DNA of 64,000 bases, from contig NZ_CP063849.1 of NCBI RefSeq assembly GCF_015277775.1, positions 5,099,501-5,163,500 on the forward strand, given 5' to 3'. This stretch comes from Paludibaculum fermentans (GTDB taxonomy: Bacteria > Acidobacteriota > Terriglobia > Bryobacterales > Bryobacteraceae). The notes beneath the pieces are model-generated. The model worked only from the letters and a program-made list of their open reading frames with translations, ran no database searches and was not told the origin of the DNA. The translations under genes and the position numbers were made by a program. Shown piece by piece: positions 35,882-55,513 of the stretch (position 1 is its first letter; the number at the start of each line of letters is the position of its first letter).

Positions 35882-36421
35882 GTGAGTAGAGTGTCTCACG
35901 GCATAATCACGCTGCTACTTGCGCTCCAGGCTGCTGCTCCCGTGCCGAGCATCGCACCGGATTGGGATTTGAAGCCGAAAGTGCAGAAAATCGGTCCGGA
36001 GGTAGAGAAACTGCGCCCCGTCCTTGTGCAGTTGCAGCCTGAGAAGTGGACGGCCGCAGGCGCGCCTGAGGCGTACGAGAAGCAGTACAAAGATTGCCTG
36101 ACGGCGATTGGGTATGTGCAGAACGCAGCCGGGCGGCTGGCGGAACAGCCGGCCAAGCTGTCCCTGGCCGTGGAGACGCTGGTGCGCCTGGAAAGCCTCG
36201 TCCAGATGGCGTCCAGCGTGAGTCAGGCAGTGCGGCGGTACCAGAATCCGGCGATTGCCGACCTTCTGGATGGGGAGATCAGCGCGGCTGGGGCCAGCAG
36301 AGACTGGCTGCGGCAGCACGTTACCGATCTGTCCATACTGAGGGAAAAGGAGCTATCCGTGGCCGAACAAGAGGCGCAGAAATGCCGTGCACAGACGTTG
36401 CACCAGGGGAACCGGAAGTGA
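35882..36421 (+). CDS. Exported helical hypothetical protein
   Basis: 179 residues, no recognised family. Signal peptide about 1-20. The mature part is predicted helical with heptad-like spacing (KVQKIGPEVEKLRPVLVQLQ; KLSLAVETLVRLESLVQMASSVSQAV) and two Cys. GTG at 35882 is taken as start; GTG at 35891 is an alternative and neither has a strong Shine-Dalgarno. Its stop overlaps the GTG start of the Cys-rich mini-protein (GTGA), making it the first gene of a three-gene unit ending in the PIG-L deacetylase. Confidence 0.65.
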   Translation: MSRVSHGIITLLLALQAAAPVPSIAPDWDLKPKVQKIGPEVEKLRPVLVQLQPEKWTAAGAPEAYEKQYKDCLTAIGYVQNAAGRLAEQPAKLSLAVETLVRLESLVQMASSVSQAVRRYQNPAIADLLDGEISAAGASRDWLRQHVTDLSILREKELSVAEQEAQKCRAQTLHQGNRK

Positions 36422-36612
36422 GTCCACAGACCCCGACGACGACGTCGACGTCGAAGGCGCTGGCCTGCAACATCTGCAGGGAGCCTTCCCAGAGGATTTG
36501 CGTCTGGTGCACCAAGGACACCTGCAACAATCACCTGTGTGCCAAGTGCGGCCGGTGCAGCGACTGCTGCGAGTGTGAACAGATCAGGGAGCGCGGTACA
36601 AGCGAATCATGA
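36418..36612 (+). CDS. Cys-rich zinc-binding (B-box-like) mini-protein
   Basis: 64 residues from GTG at 36418. After a Thr/Ser/Pro-rich N-terminus come eleven Cys and one His within 37 residues: C17, C20, C28, C31, C36, H39, C41, C44, C47, C50, C51, C53, arranged as successive CxxC-type knuckles (CNIC, CVWC, CAKC, CSDCCEC). This looks like a B-box or treble-clef-like two-zinc module. A GGGGA box is upstream. It overlaps the preceding gene (GTGA) and the following PIG-L gene (ATGA), so all three are coupled. An ATG at 36382 in the same frame would add 12 residues. Function unknown; a zinc or redox role near the deacetylase is inference. Confidence 0.7.
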   Translation: MSPQTPTTTSTSKALACNICREPSQRICVWCTKDTCNNHLCAKCGRCSDCCECEQIRERGTSES

Positions 36613-37379
36613 AGAAGCGGATTCTTTGCCTCCATGCCCATCCGGATGATGCGGAGCTGCTGGCTGGGGGCACACTGGCGCTGCTGGCAGCGCGCGGCCA
36701 CGATGTGGTGATTGCGACGATGACGGCAGGCGATTGCGGATCAGTGGAGTACGGTCCGCAGGAGATCGCCCGCATCCGGCAGGTGGAGGCCGCCAACGCG
36801 GCGGCGATCATCGGCGCCGAGTATCAGTGGGTGGGCTTCAGCGACCTGGCGATCTTTTCCGACGATGGGTCGCGGCGGCGGGTGACGGCCGCCTTGCGGC
36901 GCCTGCGTCCCGACATTGTCCTGACCGCCTCGCCCCGCGACTACCACTGCGACCACGAGGCCACTTCGGTCCTGGTGACCGATGCCTGTTTCGGCGCATC
37001 CGCCCCGAATTACCTGACGCAGGCCTACGACCAGTCCCCGGCCCTGCCGGCGATTCCGCACCTTTATTATGTCGATCCCGCGGAAGGGATCGACCGCGAG
37101 GGCAACACGATCGCCCCTCAATTCCTGGTGAATGTGGGCGGTGTGATGGAGCCCAAGCGGAAGATGGTGGAGGCGCACGAGAGCCAGCGCAACTGGCTGC
37201 GCAAGCAGCACGGCATGGACAATTTCGTGGAGACGATGGAGACCTGGTGCCGGTCGCGCGGAGCGTTGGCGGGCATCGAGTTTGGAGAAGGCTTCCGCCA
37301 ATATGGCGGACACGCTTACCCGCGGACTCCCTTGCTGCAGGAACTGCTAGCCGACCTGGTGCTGCCCGTGCGCCGGTAG
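36609..37379 (+). CDS. PIG-L/LmbE-family N-acetylglucosaminyl deacetylase
   Basis: 256 residues. Zinc-dependent deacetylase with the AHPDDAEL motif (about 10-17; H, D, D metal/base residues) and a second metal/histidine segment RDYHCDHEA (about 110-118). Candidates for its substrate are GlcNAc-malate (bacillithiol step 2, BshB, which would fit bshA at 29112) or another N-acetylated amino sugar. BshB1 is of similar length, but gene context does not prove it. Coupled to the Cys-rich gene by ATGA; its 3' end overlaps the converging MFS gene by 33 bp. Confidence 0.85.
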   Translation: MKKRILCLHAHPDDAELLAGGTLALLAARGHDVVIATMTAGDCGSVEYGPQEIARIRQVEAANAAAIIGAEYQWVGFSDLAIFSDDGSRRRVTAALRRLRPDIVLTASPRDYHCDHEATSVLVTDACFGASAPNYLTQAYDQSPALPAIPHLYYVDPAEGIDREGNTIAPQFLVNVGGVMEPKRKMVEAHESQRNWLRKQHGMDNFVETMETWCRSRGALAGIEFGEGFRQYGGHAYPRTPLLQELLADLVLPVRR

Positions 37380-47549: not shown

Positions 47550-48560
47550 ATGCGCTGGACGCTTGTCTTCCTCATGGCTGCAGCTTTGTCGCTGCCGGCG
47601 GCGAACCGCAAGAACCTGGAAATCTCCTTTATCGATACGGAAGGCGGGCAGGCGACCCTGCTGGTGACGCCGTCCGGCGAGTCGTTACTGGTGGATGCCG
47701 GCTGGCCGGGCAACAACGGCCGGGACGCCGACCGGATTATCTCCGCGGCGAAGAAAGCCGGGCTGACGAAGATCGACTACCTGCTGGTCACCCACTACCA
47801 CCTGGATCATGTGGGCGGAGTGCCGGACCTGGCGGCGAAGTTTCCGGTGGGCACGGTGATCGACCACGGCGCCAACATCGAGACCGGGCGCGGCGCAGAT
47901 GCTTTGAACGCGGGCTATCAGAAAGTCCTGGCGGCCGGCACCAAGCGGCTGACGGTGAAGCCGGGCGATGTGCTGCCGCTGAAAGACCTGCGGGTGGAAG
48001 TGGTTACGGCGAATGGAGAACGGATCCCCAAGGCGCTGAAGGGCGGCGGCCAGAAGAACGCGGTGTGCGCAACCGAGAAGCGGCGCGACGATGATCCGTC
48101 GGAAAACGCGCGGTCGATCGGGGTGTTGATGACCTTTGGCAAGTTCCGGTTTGTCGACCTGGGCGACCTCACCTGGAACAAGGAATTGGACGCGGCCTGT
48201 CCCGAGCACCTGATTGGGCCGATTGACCTGTTCATCACGACGCACCACGGCCTGGACCAGTCAAACTCGGCTTCGATGGTGCACGGCCTGCACCCGCGGG
48301 TGGCGATCATGAACAATGGCGCGCGGAAGGGCGGCTCGCCCGCCGCATGGAGCATCATTTCAGCTTCACCGGGACTGCAGGATCTGTGGCAGATCCACTA
48401 CGCCGTGGCCGGCGGCAAGGACCACAACGTGGCGGAAGACCGGATCGCGAATCCGGAGGAGAAGTGCCAGGGTGTTGGACTGGAAGTATCCGCTACCAAA
48501 GGCGGTAGTTTCACGGTCACGAATCCGCGCAACGGGTTCAATAAATCGTACAAACCCTGA
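47550..48560 (+). CDS. Exported MBL-fold metallohydrolase (ComEC/Rec2-like)
   Basis: 336 residues. Signal peptide about 1-18. Metallo-beta-lactamase fold: metal motif THYHLDHVGG (about 86-95), then FVDLGDLTW and ITTHHGLDQSN (later His and Asp ligands). Most like the ComEC C-terminal-type hydrolases, whose members cut nucleic acids or other phosphoesters; substrate unknown here. A TAGGAT box ends six bases before the ATG. The MBOAT island begins 54 bp downstream with its own TATAAT, so it is probably a separate unit. Confidence 0.83.
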   Translation: MRWTLVFLMAAALSLPAANRKNLEISFIDTEGGQATLLVTPSGESLLVDAGWPGNNGRDADRIISAAKKAGLTKIDYLLVTHYHLDHVGGVPDLAAKFPVGTVIDHGANIETGRGADALNAGYQKVLAAGTKRLTVKPGDVLPLKDLRVEVVTANGERIPKALKGGGQKNAVCATEKRRDDDPSENARSIGVLMTFGKFRFVDLGDLTWNKELDAACPEHLIGPIDLFITTHHGLDQSNSASMVHGLHPRVAIMNNGARKGGSPAAWSIISASPGLQDLWQIHYAVAGGKDHNVAEDRIANPEEKCQGVGLEVSATKGGSFTVTNPRNGFNKSYKP

Positions 48561-48614: not shown

Positions 48615-50024
48615 ATGCTCCTCTCCAGTTCTGTCTATTTCGTATTCCTGACGGGCATCTTTCTGCTCTACTGGCCGCTCCAACGCTGGCGCATGGCCGG
48701 TCTCGCTGTATTGCTGTTCGCGAACTACTACTTCTACGCGAAGTGGGATCTGTTCTATCTGGTTCTGATTCCAACCGCATCCCTGGTGGACTACCTGATT
48801 GGCCTGGGCTTGGGTGCGTGGAGCGATAAACGGGTCCGGCAGCTGCTGGTATCCACCAGCGTTCTCATGAACTTGGGCATCCTGGCGACGTTCAAGTACA
48901 TGCCGTTCTTCCTGTCCTCGTGGGCCGACTTCCGGCATGTGAAGCCGGCTGAGTGGCACTGGACCTTCCCGCTGGGCATCTCGTTCTACTGCTTCCAGTC
49001 ACTGACGTACACGATCGATCTGTACAGAAAAGACGGCAAACCGGTCAAGAGCCTGCTGGCTCACATGACGGCCGTCAGCTTCTTCCCCACCACGTTGAGC
49101 GGCCCGATCACGCGGGTGCTTTCGCTGGCTCCGCAGCTGGAGAAGAAGGACAAGCAGCTCTCGATCGACGATAGCGGCAAGGCCCTGTTCCGCATCGCTT
49201 TAGGGCTGATGAAAAAGTTCCTGATTGCCGATTACCTGGCGGAGAACCTGGTCAACCGGGTGTTCGATACACCGAACCTGTACACGGGGGTCGAGGTTCT
49301 GATCGGGGTCTATGCGTACGGGCTGCAGCTCTACTACGACTTCTCCGGCTATTCCGACCTGGCCATCGGCAGCGCGCAACTGCTGGGCCTGAAGCTGCCC
49401 GAGAACTTCAACCGGCCCTACCAGGCCTTGAATATCAGTGAGTTCTGGCGGCGCTGGCACATCTCGCTTTCCAACTGGCTGCGCGACTATCTGTACTTTT
49501 CCCTGCCCGGGCTGCGCTCGAAGTGGAAGATCTTCACGTACACGAACCTGTTCCTGACGATGCTGCTGGGCGGGCTGTGGCACGGGGCGAGCTGGAACTT
49601 CATCATTTGGGGCGCTTTACACGGCGGCGCCCTGGCGGTGCACCACGGATTCCGGACCTGGCGCGGCAACCCCAAACCCTCGACGAATCCCTGGGTGAGA
49701 ATCGCCTCGCAGCTGGCAACCGCCCATTTCGTGGTCTTTGCCTGGGTCTTCTTCCGGGCCACCACGCTGGCCAATGCGTGGGAGGTGCTGGGGCGGATCG
49801 CATCGCTGACCGCCAGCCTGGCCAACATTTCGATGCCGCTGGCCGTGGTGCTGCTGATCGGGGCCACCATGCACTATCTGCCGCGAAAGGTATACGACCT
49901 TTCCACAAAGACGTTTGTGCGGGCTCCTTTCTATGCCCAAGCTACGGCTTTGGTGCTGCTGGTGCTGGCCATCGAGTACATCGCGGTGACCGGCGCCGCA
50001 CCGTTCCTGTATACGAAGTTCTAG
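48615..50024 (+). CDS. MBOAT-family membrane O-acyltransferase (DltB/AlgI-like)
   Basis: 469 residues with about ten to twelve membrane helices. The MBOAT core is plain: LSGPITRVLSLAPQL, YDFSGYSDLAIGSAQLLG, ENFNRPYQALNISEFWRRWH, then GGLWHGASWNFIIWGALHG with the invariant catalytic His323. DltB and AlgI/PatA share this layout: the enzyme moves an acyl group across the membrane to an SGNH partner or glycan. Here the downstream carrier-protein gene favours an ACP-like thioester as donor, as in DltB. First gene of a five-gene co-directional run (gaps of 9 and 0 bp, then overlap and 8 bp). Confidence 0.93.
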   Translation: MLLSSSVYFVFLTGIFLLYWPLQRWRMAGLAVLLFANYYFYAKWDLFYLVLIPTASLVDYLIGLGLGAWSDKRVRQLLVSTSVLMNLGILATFKYMPFFLSSWADFRHVKPAEWHWTFPLGISFYCFQSLTYTIDLYRKDGKPVKSLLAHMTAVSFFPTTLSGPITRVLSLAPQLEKKDKQLSIDDSGKALFRIALGLMKKFLIADYLAENLVNRVFDTPNLYTGVEVLIGVYAYGLQLYYDFSGYSDLAIGSAQLLGLKLPENFNRPYQALNISEFWRRWHISLSNWLRDYLYFSLPGLRSKWKIFTYTNLFLTMLLGGLWHGASWNFIIWGALHGGALAVHHGFRTWRGNPKPSTNPWVRIASQLATAHFVVFAWVFFRATTLANAWEVLGRIASLTASLANISMPLAVVLLIGATMHYLPRKVYDLSTKTFVRAPFYAQATALVLLVLAIEYIAVTGAAPFLYTKF

Positions 50025-50033
50025 AGAGTCAAG

Positions 50034-51425
50034 ATGAAGTCGCCCTGGCCATTGAAACCGTTCCTCGTCATCGCGACGTTCGCGCTGGGCATCACGCTGC
50101 CGCAATACATCCCACAGTGGTACAACTGGCGGATCTACGAGTGGAGCGCGGCACCGGCGATTCTGGACTTTCAGCCCCGGTCTCGGGCAGCGGCCCCGAT
50201 GCAGGAGGAGATGGAACGGCTGCGCCCGGATACTGTCCCGGTGAAGGCGGATGATTCGAAGATCCACGATCCCGGCGGGGCGATGGACAACTTCTATGCG
50301 GCGCTATTGAAGACGGAGCGCCGGCAGGGCAATGCGGTCACGCGGATCCTGCACTATGGCGATTCGCCGACAACGGCCGATCTGATTACTGCGGACGTGC
50401 GCAATTTCCTGCAAACACGGTTTGGCGATGCCGGGCACGGCACTTACCTGATTGCGAAGCCTTGGGCCTGGTACGCGCACCGCGGCCTGGATGTCACGGC
50501 ATCGGGCTGGAAGATGGATCCGGCGACGCTGCACGGGCAGAAGGACGGGCGGTACGGGTTGGGCGGGGTGAGTTTCACGGGCAGCGCGGGCGCCGAGAGC
50601 AAGATCACGCTGCGCAATGCCGGCCATACGCGGCTGTCGCTCTCCTATTTTGCGCAACCGGATGGCGGCGAGGTCTCGATCGACGCCGGCGACGTGCACA
50701 TCACTACGCTCGATACGTCTTCACCCGAAGCGGCGGCCGTCGAGCAGACCTGGCCGATCCCGGCCGAAGCGCAGAAGTTCCAGATCAAGGTGACGCGCGG
50801 GACGGCCCGGCTGTTTGGCGTCACGTTCCGGAAGGACTCGCCGGGCGTCATGTACGACAGTATCGGCCTGAACGGCACGTGGGCGGGGGTGCTGGCGTCG
50901 CACGTGAATGGGCAGCACTGGATCGAAGAGCTGCGGATGGCGAAGCCGAATCTGGTGGTGATCAATTACGGCACGAACGAGAGCGGCTACCGGAATTACG
51001 TCGACACCACGTATCCCAAAGACGTGAAAGAGATTCTACGCCGGGTGAAGACCGCGGTGCCGGAGGCGTCGATCCTGATGATGAGCCCGATGGACCGCGG
51101 CGCGCGGGAACAGGGCGGCACGATTGGCACGATGCCGACGCTGCCGCAACTGGTCTCCGTCCAGGCGCGGCTGGCGGCCGAGAACGGCTGTGCCTTCTTC
51201 AACACCTTCCAGGCGATGGGCGGACCCGGGACTATGGGAAAGTGGTATATGGCGGAGCCGAGACTGGTGAGTGCGGACTTCATCCATCCCCTGCCCTCGG
51301 GGGCGCGCATCGTCGGAACGCTGCTGTATCAGGCACTTGTGGACGGCTACAACAGCTACAAGCTGAAGCAACTTCGCCAGAATATGGCGGCGGTGCCGAA
51401 GCAGACCGTGGGTTCGAAACCATAA
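50034..51425 (+). CDS. Membrane-anchored SGNH/GDSL-like protein 1
   Basis: 463 residues. An N-terminal hydrophobic segment (about 8-25) serves as signal anchor. SGNH blocks are all identifiable: block I HYGDSPTTAD with nucleophile Ser111, block II around GLNGTWAG (Gly/Asn), block III INYGTNESG (Asn) and block V ADFIHPLPSGARIVG with D415-x2-H418 completing the triad. A beta-sandwich-like insertion (about 155-265) separates blocks I and II. Partners of MBOAT proteins in Dlt, Alg and Pat systems are SGNH proteins that pass the acyl group to the final acceptor. ATG follows the MBOAT stop by nine bases. Confidence 0.88.
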   Translation: MKSPWPLKPFLVIATFALGITLPQYIPQWYNWRIYEWSAAPAILDFQPRSRAAAPMQEEMERLRPDTVPVKADDSKIHDPGGAMDNFYAALLKTERRQGNAVTRILHYGDSPTTADLITADVRNFLQTRFGDAGHGTYLIAKPWAWYAHRGLDVTASGWKMDPATLHGQKDGRYGLGGVSFTGSAGAESKITLRNAGHTRLSLSYFAQPDGGEVSIDAGDVHITTLDTSSPEAAAVEQTWPIPAEAQKFQIKVTRGTARLFGVTFRKDSPGVMYDSIGLNGTWAGVLASHVNGQHWIEELRMAKPNLVVINYGTNESGYRNYVDTTYPKDVKEILRRVKTAVPEASILMMSPMDRGAREQGGTIGTMPTLPQLVSVQARLAAENGCAFFNTFQAMGGPGTMGKWYMAEPRLVSADFIHPLPSGARIVGTLLYQALVDGYNSYKLKQLRQNMAAVPKQTVGSKP

Positions 51426-52790
51426 ATGAGGAATTTGGCACTTATCTTCGCGGCGGCGCTAGTCGCCCTGCCGGCATTGATGGCGGTGGCGCCGGTGCCC
51501 GCGGCCAGCGCCAAGAAGAAGGCCAAGACCTCCAGTAAGAAAACGGCCGCCAGGAAGCGGACAGTCCCCAAGCCGCCGCCGGCCAGCCCGGAGCAGAGGG
51601 CGGAGGCGACCGAAACCGTCCAGACCCACATGGCCGAGGCGGTGGACCTGGGCATCCAGAATGCCGCCGCGATGGTGCCGTTCTACGAATTGCTGTACCG
51701 CCAGCAGCAGCAACCCGGCGGTGAGCCGTTGAGAGTGCTGCACTTCGGCGATTCGCACACAGCGTCGGACGATTGGGCGGGCGAGCTCCGCGCACGGTTC
51801 CAGCAGAAGTTTGGAGACGGCGGCCCCGGCTTCGTTCAGGCAGGCCGGCCGTTCGCGGGGTTCCGCCGGTTTGATGCCAAGGCGACGATGTCGCGCAACT
51901 GGAAGCCGGAAGGCCTGCTGGCGCGCGAAGGCGACGGGCTGTACGGGCTGGCGGGCGTGAGCCTGGCCACGGCGCGGGCCAATGAAACCATCACGTTGGA
52001 AGCGGAAGGCCAGACGCTGGAGTTCTACTACCTGCAGCAGCCCGGCGGTGGCTCGTTCACGTTGGAAGACAACGACGTGGTGCTGGACACGGTTGCGACC
52101 GATGGTACGGTGGGGCCCGGCTTTTACCGCAAGGAACTGGCCGCGGGCGGGCACCACCTGGTGCTGCGGACGGTGAACAACGCTCCGGTGAGGGTGCATG
52201 GCTGGGTACTGGAGAAGCGCGGCGGCATCACGTGGGAACCGTTGGGGATCAACGGCGCGCAGGCCGATCTGCTGCTTTTGTGGGACCAGCAGGTGCTGAG
52301 GAAAGAGATTGAGCGGCGGAATCCGGCTTTGGTCGTCCTGGCTTACGGGACGAATGAGGCGCGGCGGCCGGACTGGACCAGCGAGTCGTACGCGCAGTCG
52401 CTGGGCCAGGTGGTGAAAACGATCCGGGCGGCTTCGCCGACGACGAGCATTCTGATCATTGGAGCCCCGGATCAGGCAATCTATTCACGGCGCCGTGTTG
52501 TGCCGTACGAAGCGGTTGATAAGATCTTAATAGCGCAACGCGACGCCGCACTGGCCAACGGATGCGCGTTTTGGAATTTGAGAGCGGCCATGGGCGGCAA
52601 GGGATCCATGAAACAATGGGTCCAGGCCGGCCTGGCACAAGGCGATTTCGTACATCTGACTTCGCCAGGTTACCGCCTGGTGGGGGATTCTCTATTCGAG
52701 CTCATCATGGGCCAGTACGGAGTCTTTCAAACCGTGCGACGCCAGGTTTTAGGAGCTAACGAAAATGGACCGTCGATCAAAACTCATTGA
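51426..52790 (+). CDS. Exported SGNH/GDSL-like protein 2
   Basis: 454 residues. Signal peptide about 1-29, then a Lys/Pro-rich basic linker (AKKKAKTSSKKTAARKR) that could contact the membrane or cell wall. SGNH residues: Ser110 in HFGDSHTASDD, Asn in GINGAQAD, YGTNEARRPD, and D407-x2-H410 in GDFVHLTSPGYR. Same architecture as the preceding gene, including the inserted beta domain, but only modest identity, so an old duplication with divided roles. ATG directly abuts the previous stop codon. Confidence 0.87.
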   Translation: MRNLALIFAAALVALPALMAVAPVPAASAKKKAKTSSKKTAARKRTVPKPPPASPEQRAEATETVQTHMAEAVDLGIQNAAAMVPFYELLYRQQQQPGGEPLRVLHFGDSHTASDDWAGELRARFQQKFGDGGPGFVQAGRPFAGFRRFDAKATMSRNWKPEGLLAREGDGLYGLAGVSLATARANETITLEAEGQTLEFYYLQQPGGGSFTLEDNDVVLDTVATDGTVGPGFYRKELAAGGHHLVLRTVNNAPVRVHGWVLEKRGGITWEPLGINGAQADLLLLWDQQVLRKEIERRNPALVVLAYGTNEARRPDWTSESYAQSLGQVVKTIRAASPTTSILIIGAPDQAIYSRRRVVPYEAVDKILIAQRDAALANGCAFWNLRAAMGGKGSMKQWVQAGLAQGDFVHLTSPGYRLVGDSLFELIMGQYGVFQTVRRQVLGANENGPSIKTH

Positions 52791-52998
52791 AATCCTGAAA
52801 ACGGTGACGAAACAGGACACCTTACCGGAGCCTGGCGATTCCCTGTTCGATTCCGGATTGCTCGACTCGTTCGCATTGCCGGACCTGGTGAGCGCCCTGG
52901 AACAGGAGTTCTCCATTCAGATCCCCGACGCGGACCTGAACCCTCGCAAGTTCGACTCAATCGAGCGGATCGAAGAATACCTCGACTCTAGGAATTGA
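52765..52998 (+). CDS. DltC-like acyl carrier protein
   Basis: 77-residue four-helix carrier protein. The phosphopantetheine site is Ser35 in GLLDSF, the same hexapeptide I know from DltC (D-alanyl carrier) rather than the GxDSL of fatty-acid ACP. The sequence after it (LVSALEQEFSIQIPDADLNPRKFDSIERI) also has the DltC pattern. AGGAG lies nine bases upstream of the ATG; the gene overlaps the end of the second SGNH gene by 26 bp. It probably carries the acyl group handed to the MBOAT protein. No DltA-like ligase is in the window. Confidence 0.88.
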   Translation: MDRRSKLIEILKTVTKQDTLPEPGDSLFDSGLLDSFALPDLVSALEQEFSIQIPDADLNPRKFDSIERIEEYLDSRN

Positions 52999-53006
52999 CT
53001 GGGGCA

Positions 53007-53939
53007 ATGGCATTTATCAAGGAATTCGGAAGCTGGCTGCCCGAGCGGGTGGTAACCAGCCAGGAGGCTGGCAGCTGGGTTGGCGCAGACTCCACCTGGG
53101 TGGTCAATGTCTCAGGGATTGAAGAGCGGCGGTTCGCCGTGGACGAAGATACCGTGGCCGACCTGGCCGCGCGGGCGGGCCGGGATTGCCTGGAACGCGC
53201 GGGCGTAGCTCCGGGCGACCTCGGAATGGTGATGGTGGCCAGCGGTTCGGCGGAGCGGTCGTTCCCCGGGCCGGCCTGCGTCGCGGCGCAGAAGATGGGC
53301 GCAGCCGGGGTTCCGGCCGTCGACCTGCCGATGGCGAGCGCGGGTTCACTGTTCGGCCTCTCGATGGCGGCGCGCCTTACCTCGCAGATTGGTCCGATTC
53401 TCGTGATCGGCGCCGAGAAGATGTCGCGGATTGTAGCGCGCGAGCCGCAGGAGCGCGGCGTGGCGGTACTGTTTGGCGACGGCGCGGGCGCCTGCCTGAT
53501 TACAGCCGAAAAGGGCCGGGCCGAGATCGTCGATTCCGTTTTGGGCACCGATGGCTCGTATTCCGAGGATTTGACGCTGGAAAACGGCATGCCCATAAAA
53601 ATGAATGGGCGCAGCGTGATTCTGCAGGCTTCCCGCAAGATTCCGGCCGCGATCCGGTCGCTGCTGGACCGCTATAAGATTCAGCCGCCGGATGTGCTGG
53701 CGTTCCTGATGCACCAGGCCAACCAGAACCTCATCGACCGGGTGGCCAGCACGCTGGGCGTGCCCAGCGCGAAGTTCTTTTCGAACATCCGCAAGTATGG
53801 GAACACCTCGTCGGCTTCGATGTTGATTGCGGCCTGCGAGTGGAGCCAGGACAACGACTTCGAGCCCGGCTTGCCCGTGGTCTTCGCAGCCTTCGGCGCC
53901 GGCTTCAACTGGGGCGCCCTGCTGGTTCGCGGCGTTTAG
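53007..53939 (+). CDS. 3-oxoacyl-ACP synthase III-like protein with Ser in place of catalytic Cys
   Basis: 310 residues, FabH/KASIII thiolase fold. His236 (FLMHQANQNLIDR) and Asn266 (KYGNTSSAS) of the Cys-His-Asn triad are present, but the Cys position, in a DLPMASAGSLFGL segment where FabH has AACAGF, is Ser111. Some KASIII-like enzymes such as DpsC use Ser at this place for acyl transfer or starter selection. Inferred role: move an acyl group from CoA to the neighbouring carrier protein. ATG at 53007 is preferred over TTG at 52995, which overlaps the carrier's stop. Confidence 0.88.
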   Translation: MAFIKEFGSWLPERVVTSQEAGSWVGADSTWVVNVSGIEERRFAVDEDTVADLAARAGRDCLERAGVAPGDLGMVMVASGSAERSFPGPACVAAQKMGAAGVPAVDLPMASAGSLFGLSMAARLTSQIGPILVIGAEKMSRIVAREPQERGVAVLFGDGAGACLITAEKGRAEIVDSVLGTDGSYSEDLTLENGMPIKMNGRSVILQASRKIPAAIRSLLDRYKIQPPDVLAFLMHQANQNLIDRVASTLGVPSAKFFSNIRKYGNTSSASMLIAACEWSQDNDFEPGLPVVFAAFGAGFNWGALLVRGV

Positions 53940-53978: not shown

Positions 53979-54518
53979 ATGGCGGAGGAGACGCAAGGGC
54001 TGGTCGAAGCCGCGCAGCGCGGCGATCGTACCGCCTTTGGTTCGCTCTACGAACGGTATGGCCGCATGGTGCATGCCGTCCTGCTGGCGCGCGTCCATCG
54101 CCAGGAGACCGACGACCTGGTCCACGAGGTCTTCCTGCAGGCATGGCGGGCCCTGCCTTCCCTGCGGGAGCCGGCCGCCTTTCCCGGCTGGCTGGCGCGC
54201 ATTGCACGAAACAAAGCCATGGATCACTACCGGCGCGGCCATGAGGAGCAGGAACTGCCCCTGACCCTGGAGGGCGGCGGGCGTCCGGGCGAAGATGGAC
54301 AGTACATCCTCGCCATGGTACGGAGCCTGCCGGAAGCTTACAGGGAAACCCTGCTCATGCGCCTGGTGGAAGGGATGACCGGGCCCGAGATTTCGGTGCT
54401 GACGGGGCTGACGCATGAATCGGTGCGGGTGAATCTGTCGCGCGGCATGAAGATGCTGCGCGAGAAACTGGCTCCAGGATCCGGTGAACCGGGCCCCGGG
54501 GCGGAGAGACAGTCATGA
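53979..54518 (+). CDS. ECF-type RNA polymerase sigma factor
   Basis: 179 residues. Region 2 (YERYGRMVHAVLLARV ... DDLVHEVFLQAWRALPSL ... ARIARNKAMDHYRR) and region 4 (LPEAYRETLLMRLVEGMTGPEISVLTGLTHESVRVNLSRGMKMLRE) are both canonical. It overlaps the FecR-like membrane protein gene by four bases (ATGA), the standard sigma/anti-sigma layout. Confidence 0.93.
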   Translation: MAEETQGLVEAAQRGDRTAFGSLYERYGRMVHAVLLARVHRQETDDLVHEVFLQAWRALPSLREPAAFPGWLARIARNKAMDHYRRGHEEQELPLTLEGGGRPGEDGQYILAMVRSLPEAYRETLLMRLVEGMTGPEISVLTGLTHESVRVNLSRGMKMLREKLAPGSGEPGPGAERQS

Positions 54519-55513
54519 GCGACTGGCACGACGACGAACTCGAGCGGATGCAGGAGGCTTTGCGGCCGCTGCGCTACCAGTCCCGGCGGGCGGAGTTGGA
54601 GGCACGCCTGGAGCCGCGTGGCCCCGTCCGCATGCCTGCCTGGAAACACTATGCCATCGCCGCCGCCGTGCTCGTCTCCGTTGGCGTTTCCGCCGCCGCG
54701 TATGTCTATCAACATTCACCGGGTTGGGCCATCGCCAGTACCGAGGGAGAGGTAAGCCTGAACTGGGGTTCGCGCTTCACGCGGGTATTGCGGTCCGGGG
54801 AAGGACTCGAGACCGCCGCGGGCCAGGTGCAGCTTCGCGTGGGCAGCATTGGGGCTCTCACCATCGGGAAGAACTCGCGGATCCGGCTGGTGGAGGCGTC
54901 GCCCAATCAGCAGACGGTCTCGCTGGAGCATGGTGAGATCCGGGCCAGCATTCTGGCTCCGCCACGCCAGTTCCAGGTATTGACCCCGGCGGCGAAGGCG
55001 GTGGACCTGGGGTGCGCGTACACGCTCAAGGTCGATCGCGACGGGAACGGACACCTGGAAGTGACCATGGGCTGGGTGAGCTTCGAGGACCGCGGCCGAC
55101 AGTCGTTTATCCCGGTCGGGGCGGCGTGCCGGACCCGCAAGGGGCTGGGACCGGGCACTCCCTACTACCTGGACGCCGAACCCGGTTTGATCAACGCCCT
55201 GGAGCAGGTGGACTTCTCCGCACAGCCCGCGGAACGGCTGGCGGCCCGGAAAACCCTGCTGCCCCTGGCGCGCCGCCGGGATGCTTTGACGCTTTGGCAC
55301 CTGCTTTCGCGAGGGACGCCAGATGAGCGGGGCATGACCGTGGACCGTCTGACCGCCCTGGCTCCGCTGCCGCCGGGCGTGACCCGCGAAGCCATACTCA
55401 GGCTGGAGCCCGACGCGCTGCAGCGGCTGTGGGACGGCATGAACCTGGGCCCCGGGGCGTGGTGGAAGCTGTGGGGCTTTACGCCGCCGCCCGCTCCTGT
55501 TGTGCGTCGCTAA
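54515..55513 (+). CDS. FecR-like membrane protein, probable anti-sigma partner
   Basis: 332 residues. A short cytoplasmic N-terminus (about 1-42) precedes one membrane helix (about 45-65) and a periplasmic FecR-like domain (about 70-200, VGSIGALTIGKNSRIRLVEA ... TVSLEHGEIRASIL ... KAVDLGCAYTLKVDRDGNG). The C-terminal about 100 residues are helical. The canonical zinc-binding anti-sigma His-Cys motif is absent, so sigma inhibition would be by another mechanism. Coupled to the ECF gene. Confidence 0.83.
   Translation: MSDWHDDELERMQEALRPLRYQSRRAELEARLEPRGPVRMPAWKHYAIAAAVLVSVGVSAAAYVYQHSPGWAIASTEGEVSLNWGSRFTRVLRSGEGLETAAGQVQLRVGSIGALTIGKNSRIRLVEASPNQQTVSLEHGEIRASILAPPRQFQVLTPAAKAVDLGCAYTLKVDRDGNGHLEVTMGWVSFEDRGRQSFIPVGAACRTRKGLGPGTPYYLDAEPGLINALEQVDFSAQPAERLAARKTLLPLARRRDALTLWHLLSRGTPDERGMTVDRLTALAPLPPGVTREAILRLEPDALQRLWDGMNLGPGAWWKLWGFTPPPAPVVRR

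Follow-up and report, generated by a model that had tools for sequence, protein, structure and literature searches.

In a 64,000-nucleotide stretch of the Paludibaculum fermentans genome (Acidobacteriota; contig NZ_CP063849.1, positions 5,099,501 to 5,163,500), hereafter the window, we recognized a module of five genes at positions 48615-53939 that encodes an MBOAT acyltransferase, two SGNH proteins (SGNH1 and SGNH2), a DltC-like carrier protein, and a KASIII-fold protein. Our reading is that these proteins would form a carrier-dependent MBOAT-SGNH system for envelope acylation, in which the carrier would be charged by the KASIII-fold protein acting as an acyltransferase, and we assign this whole chain a probability of roughly 0.62. 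What we observed are the composition and linkage of the module, its co-inheritance, its active-site residues, and the folds of its SGNH proteins. Specifically, the genes were co-directional on the + strand and tightly packed, with distances of 9, 0, -26, and -4 nt from MBOAT through SGNH1, SGNH2, and carrier to KASIII, in a genome of 9.5 Mb on two contigs. A first-pass annotation of the window had described five such genes with these identities; all five were found at those positions in the open reading frame listing, and Pfam and NCBIfam bore out what each had been called. The Ser in the KASIII active site, the FLYTKF end of the MBOAT, and the Ape1 fold of the SGNH proteins, all described below, were absent from that annotation.

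We infer all of the catalysis, the identity of the acyl group and of its acceptor, and how the two SGNH proteins share the work. The KASIII would take an acyl group from acyl-CoA onto its Ser111 and hand it to the carrier's phosphopantetheine, using no ATP and standing in the role that DltA has in the Dlt system. The charged carrier would dock on the MBOAT at its cytoplasmic side, and the MBOAT would pass the acyl group through the membrane and onto the Tyr in its own C-terminal FLYTKF motif. From there, the membrane-anchored SGNH1 would take the group onto its Ser and esterify a periplasmic glycan, most likely peptidoglycan, and the secreted, Ape1-like SGNH2 would remove or redistribute acyl groups.

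A telling residue lies in the KASIII. This protein aligned over its full length with FabH structures (best match 2ebd, E 3e-53) and retained the FabH His and Asn (His236 and Asn266), with Ser at the position of the catalytic Cys (Ser111 counted from the ATG at 53007, Ser115 from the TTG at 52995). The same Ser was present in 22 of 22 loci checked, the window included, each thus having Ser-His-Asn where condensing FabH has Cys-His-Asn, and it recurred in L157 and L158, loci of another phylum; among the relatives, its codon was of the AGY type in some and of the TCN type in others. The loci that ranked lower in the same scan of the collection, 67 in number and of ordinary FabH type, all had Cys. 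A precedent is DpsC, the daunorubicin priming enzyme, a Ser-type KASIII that self-acylates and then passes the acyl group to a carrier (PMC12664062). DpsC and the module protein are alike in KASIII fold, Ser nucleophile, and adjacent carrier. However, the triad of DpsC is Ser-His-Asp (PMC12664062), and the module lies outside any polyketide cluster; because the third residue is Asn rather than Asp, the resemblance would be one of chemistry and not of membership. That the KASIII loads the carrier was already the idea of the first-pass annotation; it gains support from the Cys-to-Ser exchange, as well as from sister loci, described below, in which a ligase lies beside the carrier, and we would put this step somewhat above the chain as a whole.

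The carrier itself had DltC as its nearest NCBIfam model (NF003464, 41 bits against a cut-off of 68), and its best PDB matches were D-alanyl carrier proteins, both by single sequence and by profile. Its DSF site was invariant in 21 of 21 sequences. Given these features, and with additional carrier-protein matches elsewhere in the genome, we rejected the identification as an ordinary fatty-acid acyl carrier protein. No DltA ortholog in the genome reached the cut-off (231 bits at best to TIGR01734, cut-off 560), and Pfam identified no AMP-binding enzyme among the module genes. Neither of these two outcomes that the first-pass annotation had listed as refuting its reading, a co-occurring dltA-like ligase or a carrier belonging to fatty-acid synthesis, materialized. 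Separately, the second contig of the genome (55 kb) carried an AMP-ligase that adjoins a carrier, along with a polysaccharide deacetylase and a second MBOAT, ending in FLYFQF (C2:14071-15776 and 36279-36962; L020, L102, and L118).

For the module MBOAT, the sole PDB relatives found were DltB structures (6bug and 8jem, E 3.5e-30), with the MBOAT His aligned, and its score to the DltB model TIGR04091 was 192 bits against a cut-off of 375. The C-terminal FLYTKF conforms to FxYxxF, which was present in 15 of 15 module sequences and in all 28 MBOATs of our tree. The Tyr of this motif accepts the acyl group in PatA, and in Dlt the equivalent motif is carried on DltX (PMC12148441). Since the motif is fused to the module MBOAT rather than borne by a separate DltX peptide, and the MBOAT His is also present, this protein looks PatA-like in that respect.

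Both SGNH proteins resembled Ape1, the peptidoglycan O-acetylesterase. By profile, Ape1 (4k3u) was the first match of SGNH1 (E 2e-29) and of SGNH2 (E 9.5e-55), and no PatB entry was named among the profile or Foldseek matches. The structural models (pLDDT 83 and 85, respectively) each had Ape1 of Neisseria and Campylobacter as their top five Foldseek matches (TM-scores of 0.78-0.89 by target length; 0.89 for SGNH1 with 4k3u), followed by a sharp drop in score. The catalytic Ser, Asn, Asp, and His were invariant in SGNH1 (15 sequences) and in SGNH2. SGNH1 reads as membrane-anchored, from its N-terminal helix, and SGNH2 as secreted, from its signal-peptide-like start. We take SGNH1 as the putative transferase onto the polymer because it is the SGNH type retained in the ligase-type loci; SGNH2, which is closer to Ape1, may be an esterase or possibly a second transferase. 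Because both have the Ape1 fold, peptidoglycan is our first-choice acceptor, a choice held less firmly than the chain itself. The first-pass annotation had proposed a surface polymer of unspecified kind; the fold makes peptidoglycan the more likely acceptor. In one relative, G187, a bacterial SH3-domain protein directly followed SGNH2 (L140:2340-3488), which is in line with a cell-wall role.

The alternative that survives best concerns this acceptor and leaves the charging of the carrier unchanged. Acidobacteriota produce exopolysaccharides, and one membrane-anchored plus one secreted SGNH protein is also the arrangement of AlgJ and AlgX, so the pair might act in that manner on an exopolysaccharide or lipopolysaccharide. 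We regard this as unlikely but worth keeping in view: no other solved structure comes close to Ape1 as a match for the SGNH folds, and no obvious polysaccharide synthesis genes appeared beside the module in the open reading frame listing of the window.

We then considered how far the module is inherited as a unit. SGNH1 matches were counted as strong from 471 bits upward (weak matches scored ~150-190 bits), and 10 of 247 sampled Acidobacteriota genomes had one; nine of these have carrier and KASIII alongside. The module is accessory, occurring in about 1 in 20 genomes of the phylum sample. Carrier and KASIII were present in all 12 strong-SGNH1 genomes, namely the 10 Acidobacteriota and two genomes of the phylum to which a Syntrophobacteraceae genome belongs, and were adjacent in 11. 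In G187, the halves are split, carrier-KASIII being on contig 4 and MBOAT-SGNH1-SGNH2 on contig 54, and a second unlinked case (L028, genome G1235) is similarly divided. The unlinked pair of G187 (L013:5054-10729) lay beside FliW-like and flagellin-like genes and purF, names that derive from sequence. In all 20 relatives for which both genes were available, the carrier preceded the KASIII as its neighbor on one strand, with a gap of at most 9 nt in 17 and of 78, 185, and 448 nt in the other three. Gene order was as in the window across Terriglobia, and in families further away it was SGNH2-MBOAT-SGNH1 with carrier-KASIII beside it on either strand.

Module MBOATs formed one clade (support 98/94), apart from a long-branched copy in G100, and the main branches agreed with those of the KASIII tree. 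The two genomes of the other phylum held the whole module, and their KASIIIs nested beside those of Holophagaceae, which suggests that the module moved between phyla. At strict limits, no SGNH1 match was recovered from 240 sampled Verrucomicrobiota and 249 sampled Gemmatimonadota genomes (the phyla of loci L035 and L080, respectively), a result that does not show absence. The neighborhood of MBOAT, SGNH, carrier, and KASIII that the first-pass annotation had suggested searching for is conserved in many Acidobacteriota loci and in these two genomes; such recurrence, together with the agreement of the two trees, is more than chance.

The weak SGNH1 matches belonged to the same MBOAT-SGNH chassis with other front-ends, and of all comparisons this one says most about mechanism. 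Stretches of 12-20 kb were read, and a carrier or KASIII is called absent with respect to these; on that basis, six weak-match loci were without KASIII. Among five Bacteroidota loci read, three had no carrier and two (L159:4091-9090 and L161:3101-7997, in G928 and G956) combined an SGNH1-like protein, a fatty-acyl-AMP ligase, a carrier, and an MBOAT ending in FIYFQF in a tight run, an arrangement that may itself be undescribed. Additionally, a locus of the Acidobacteriota genome G008 encoded an MBOAT with a pair of SGNH proteins and had no carrier. Because the Bacteroidota chassis occurs either without a carrier or with ligase plus carrier, the charging enzymes appear exchangeable, and ligase with carrier in one branch and KASIII with carrier in the other is the pattern to expect if carrier loading is the task of both enzymes.

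The carrier-KASIII pair also occurs away from this chassis. G100 and the genome of L033 encoded a Ser KASIII and had no SGNH1 match; the carrier was adjacent in G100, and L033 was cut at a contig end. The surroundings of the G100 pair (L019:3942-19287) were a sugar cluster of the nonulosonic-acid type, which also comprised a UDP-GlcNAc 2-epimerase, a cytidylyltransferase, a CBS-linked nucleotidyltransferase, a DegT aminotransferase, a hexapeptide acyltransferase, and a distant MBOAT. From this context, the pair probably supplies more than one glycan acyltransferase with acyl-carrier. One could go further and propose that the MBOAT and SGNH proteins use acyl-CoA as PatA does, as is the case for other MBOAT-SGNH systems (PMC12148441), and that carrier and KASIII are a separate, often linked source of acyl-carrier that serves a different pathway (sugar N-acylation or lipid synthesis, for example). 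The hexapeptide acyltransferase next to the G100 pair and the distance between pair and MBOAT in G187 and L028 would fit. Yet co-occurrence persists where the genes are unlinked (G187 and G1235), the carrier is DltC-like, the main branching of the KASIII tree matches that of the MBOAT tree, and elsewhere the same chassis holds a ligase and carrier, so that we consider this separation improbable.

In a maximum-likelihood tree, the module KASIIIs formed one clade (99/98), within which the 24 Ser forms were one sub-clade (100/96) and two Cys forms were their sister; the nearest relatives of the window protein came from Bryobacterales and Solibacter, both Acidobacteriota. The simplest reading is a single recruitment of KASIII and then a single Cys-to-Ser exchange, which was probably independent of that in DpsC, because the Ser clade is sister to Cys-type module members. 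Those two members (G075 and G063; L138:10356-11360 and L139:11474-12478) have their Cys in an unusual ACCN context as compared with AC(S/A/T)G in FabH, and on their account we rejected the Ser exchange as a hallmark of all module members. A housekeeping FabH identity was likewise rejected, given a separate Cys-type FabH at C1:4446521 in the same genome and the distinct clade of the module proteins. The genome also encoded a KASIII-like protein of very divergent sequence, in which Gly occupies the catalytic position, near another small carrier match (C1:5586982-5589724; L110 and L117). At the position that we take to be the pocket cap, Phe87 of E. coli FabH, most members had Phe, and several Acidobacteriaceae-type loci had Cys, Ser, or Thr. 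Because this residue is a poor predictor of chain length (PMC12664062), we only lean towards a short-chain acyl group. Least probable among the alternatives is that the KASIII condenses, extending acyl-CoA with malonyl-carrier to a 3-oxoacyl (or, after reduction, 3-hydroxyacyl) carrier for export by the MBOAT: the fold is kept with its His and Asn, Cys persists in two members, and DpsC-like enzymes "also can" transfer acyl groups directly, wording that leaves condensation possible for Ser types (PMC12664062), but the catalytic Cys is gone in 24 of 26 clade members, and Pfam found neither a ketoreductase nor a malonyltransferase in the module.

Several points weigh against carrier charging by the KASIII and export to peptidoglycan. 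The evidence consists of sequences and structural models. The DpsC precedent differs in its triad, Ser-His-Asp versus Ser-His-Asn, and the two Cys-type members indicate that Ser is not strictly required. A carrier may not be needed, given that MBOATs without one use acyl-CoA directly (PMC12148441), and the sugar cluster of G100 demonstrates that the pair is not exclusive to the chassis. Finally, the argument for peptidoglycan as acceptor is one of fold similarity.

Coordinates are collected in Table 1. Two flanking features were considered as module parts and rejected: the upstream metallo-beta-lactamase gene was present only in the near relatives L021 and L023 among ten loci tested, and the downstream ECF sigma and FecR genes were missing from the ten relatives' loci tested. 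A scan of the module locus with consensus promoters gave no match.

Table 1. Genes of the acylation module, active-site codons of the KASIII, and flanking genes, in window coordinates.
Feature	Position	Strand	Evidence and residues
MBOAT acyltransferase, DltB/PatA type	48615..50024	+	PF03062, E 2e-28; C-terminal FLYTKF nt 50004-50021; invariant His336
SGNH1, reads as membrane-anchored, Ape1 fold	50034..51425	+	PF13472; Ser111, Asn315, Asp415, His418
SGNH2, reads as secreted, Ape1 fold	51426..52790	+	PF13472; Ser110, Asn310, Asp407, His410
Acyl carrier protein, DltC-like	52765..52998	+	PF00550; phosphopantetheine site LLDSF, Ser35 nt 52867-52869
KASIII-fold protein	52995..53939	+	PF08541/PF08545; start TTG 52995 or ATG 53007
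KASIII triad codons	Ser 53337-53339; His 53712-53714; Asn 53802-53804	+	Ser-His-Asn replaces Cys-His-Asn
Metallo-beta-lactamase-fold protein, upstream flank	47550..48560	+	PF00753
ECF sigma factor and FecR-domain protein, downstream flank	53979..55513	+	Pfam

Among known systems, Dlt (DltA, DltB, DltC, DltD, and DltX) has a carrier, and other MBOAT/SGNH systems have none and use acyl-CoA directly (PMC12148441), a contrast that the first-pass annotation had drawn correctly. The module is like Dlt in its DltB-like MBOAT, DltC-like carrier, and membrane-anchored SGNH protein, and in the proposed acyl path from carrier to MBOAT to Tyr to SGNH. It differs in having a KASIII and no DltA, in the fusion of the Tyr motif to the MBOAT, and in having two Ape1-fold SGNH proteins instead of DltD; neither teichoic acid nor an amino acid would be expected. 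With PatA/PatB/Ape1, which O-acetylates peptidoglycan in Gram-negatives, it shares the fused FxYxxF MBOAT, two SGNH proteins, the Ape1 fold, and a likely peptidoglycan acceptor. However, PatA takes acetyl-CoA directly (PMC12148441), whereas the module adds carrier and KASIII, the carrier being linked or co-occurring in all strong-match genomes, and both of its SGNH proteins are Ape1-like. The Bacteroidota ligase-type loci have the MBOAT-SGNH1 chassis and a carrier in common with it, differing in that their carrier is presumably charged by the fatty-acyl-AMP ligase. We propose that the module is Dlt-like up to the carrier, PatA-like from the membrane outward, and a member of neither. No described system of this composition was found in the literature searched.

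More broadly, and with the odds about even, MBOAT-SGNH machines may be a common chassis with exchangeable front-ends: none, where acyl-CoA is used directly; an AMP ligase with a carrier, as in Dlt and the fatty-acyl-AMP ligase form; and, newly, a KASIII turned acyl-CoA:carrier acyltransferase, mostly by a Cys-to-Ser exchange, which would let Gram-negatives put CoA-derived acyl groups other than acetate on peptidoglycan. The module is at odds with the statement in the field that MBOAT/SGNH systems other than Dlt have no carrier (PMC12148441), and provides a natural example of a ketosynthase that seems to have taken over from an ATP-dependent ligase. It makes testable the question of why a cell would interpose a carrier on the way from CoA to the MBOAT, for which selection of the acyl group is the obvious guess, and it points to a modification of the envelope, as yet undescribed, in an abundant soil phylum.

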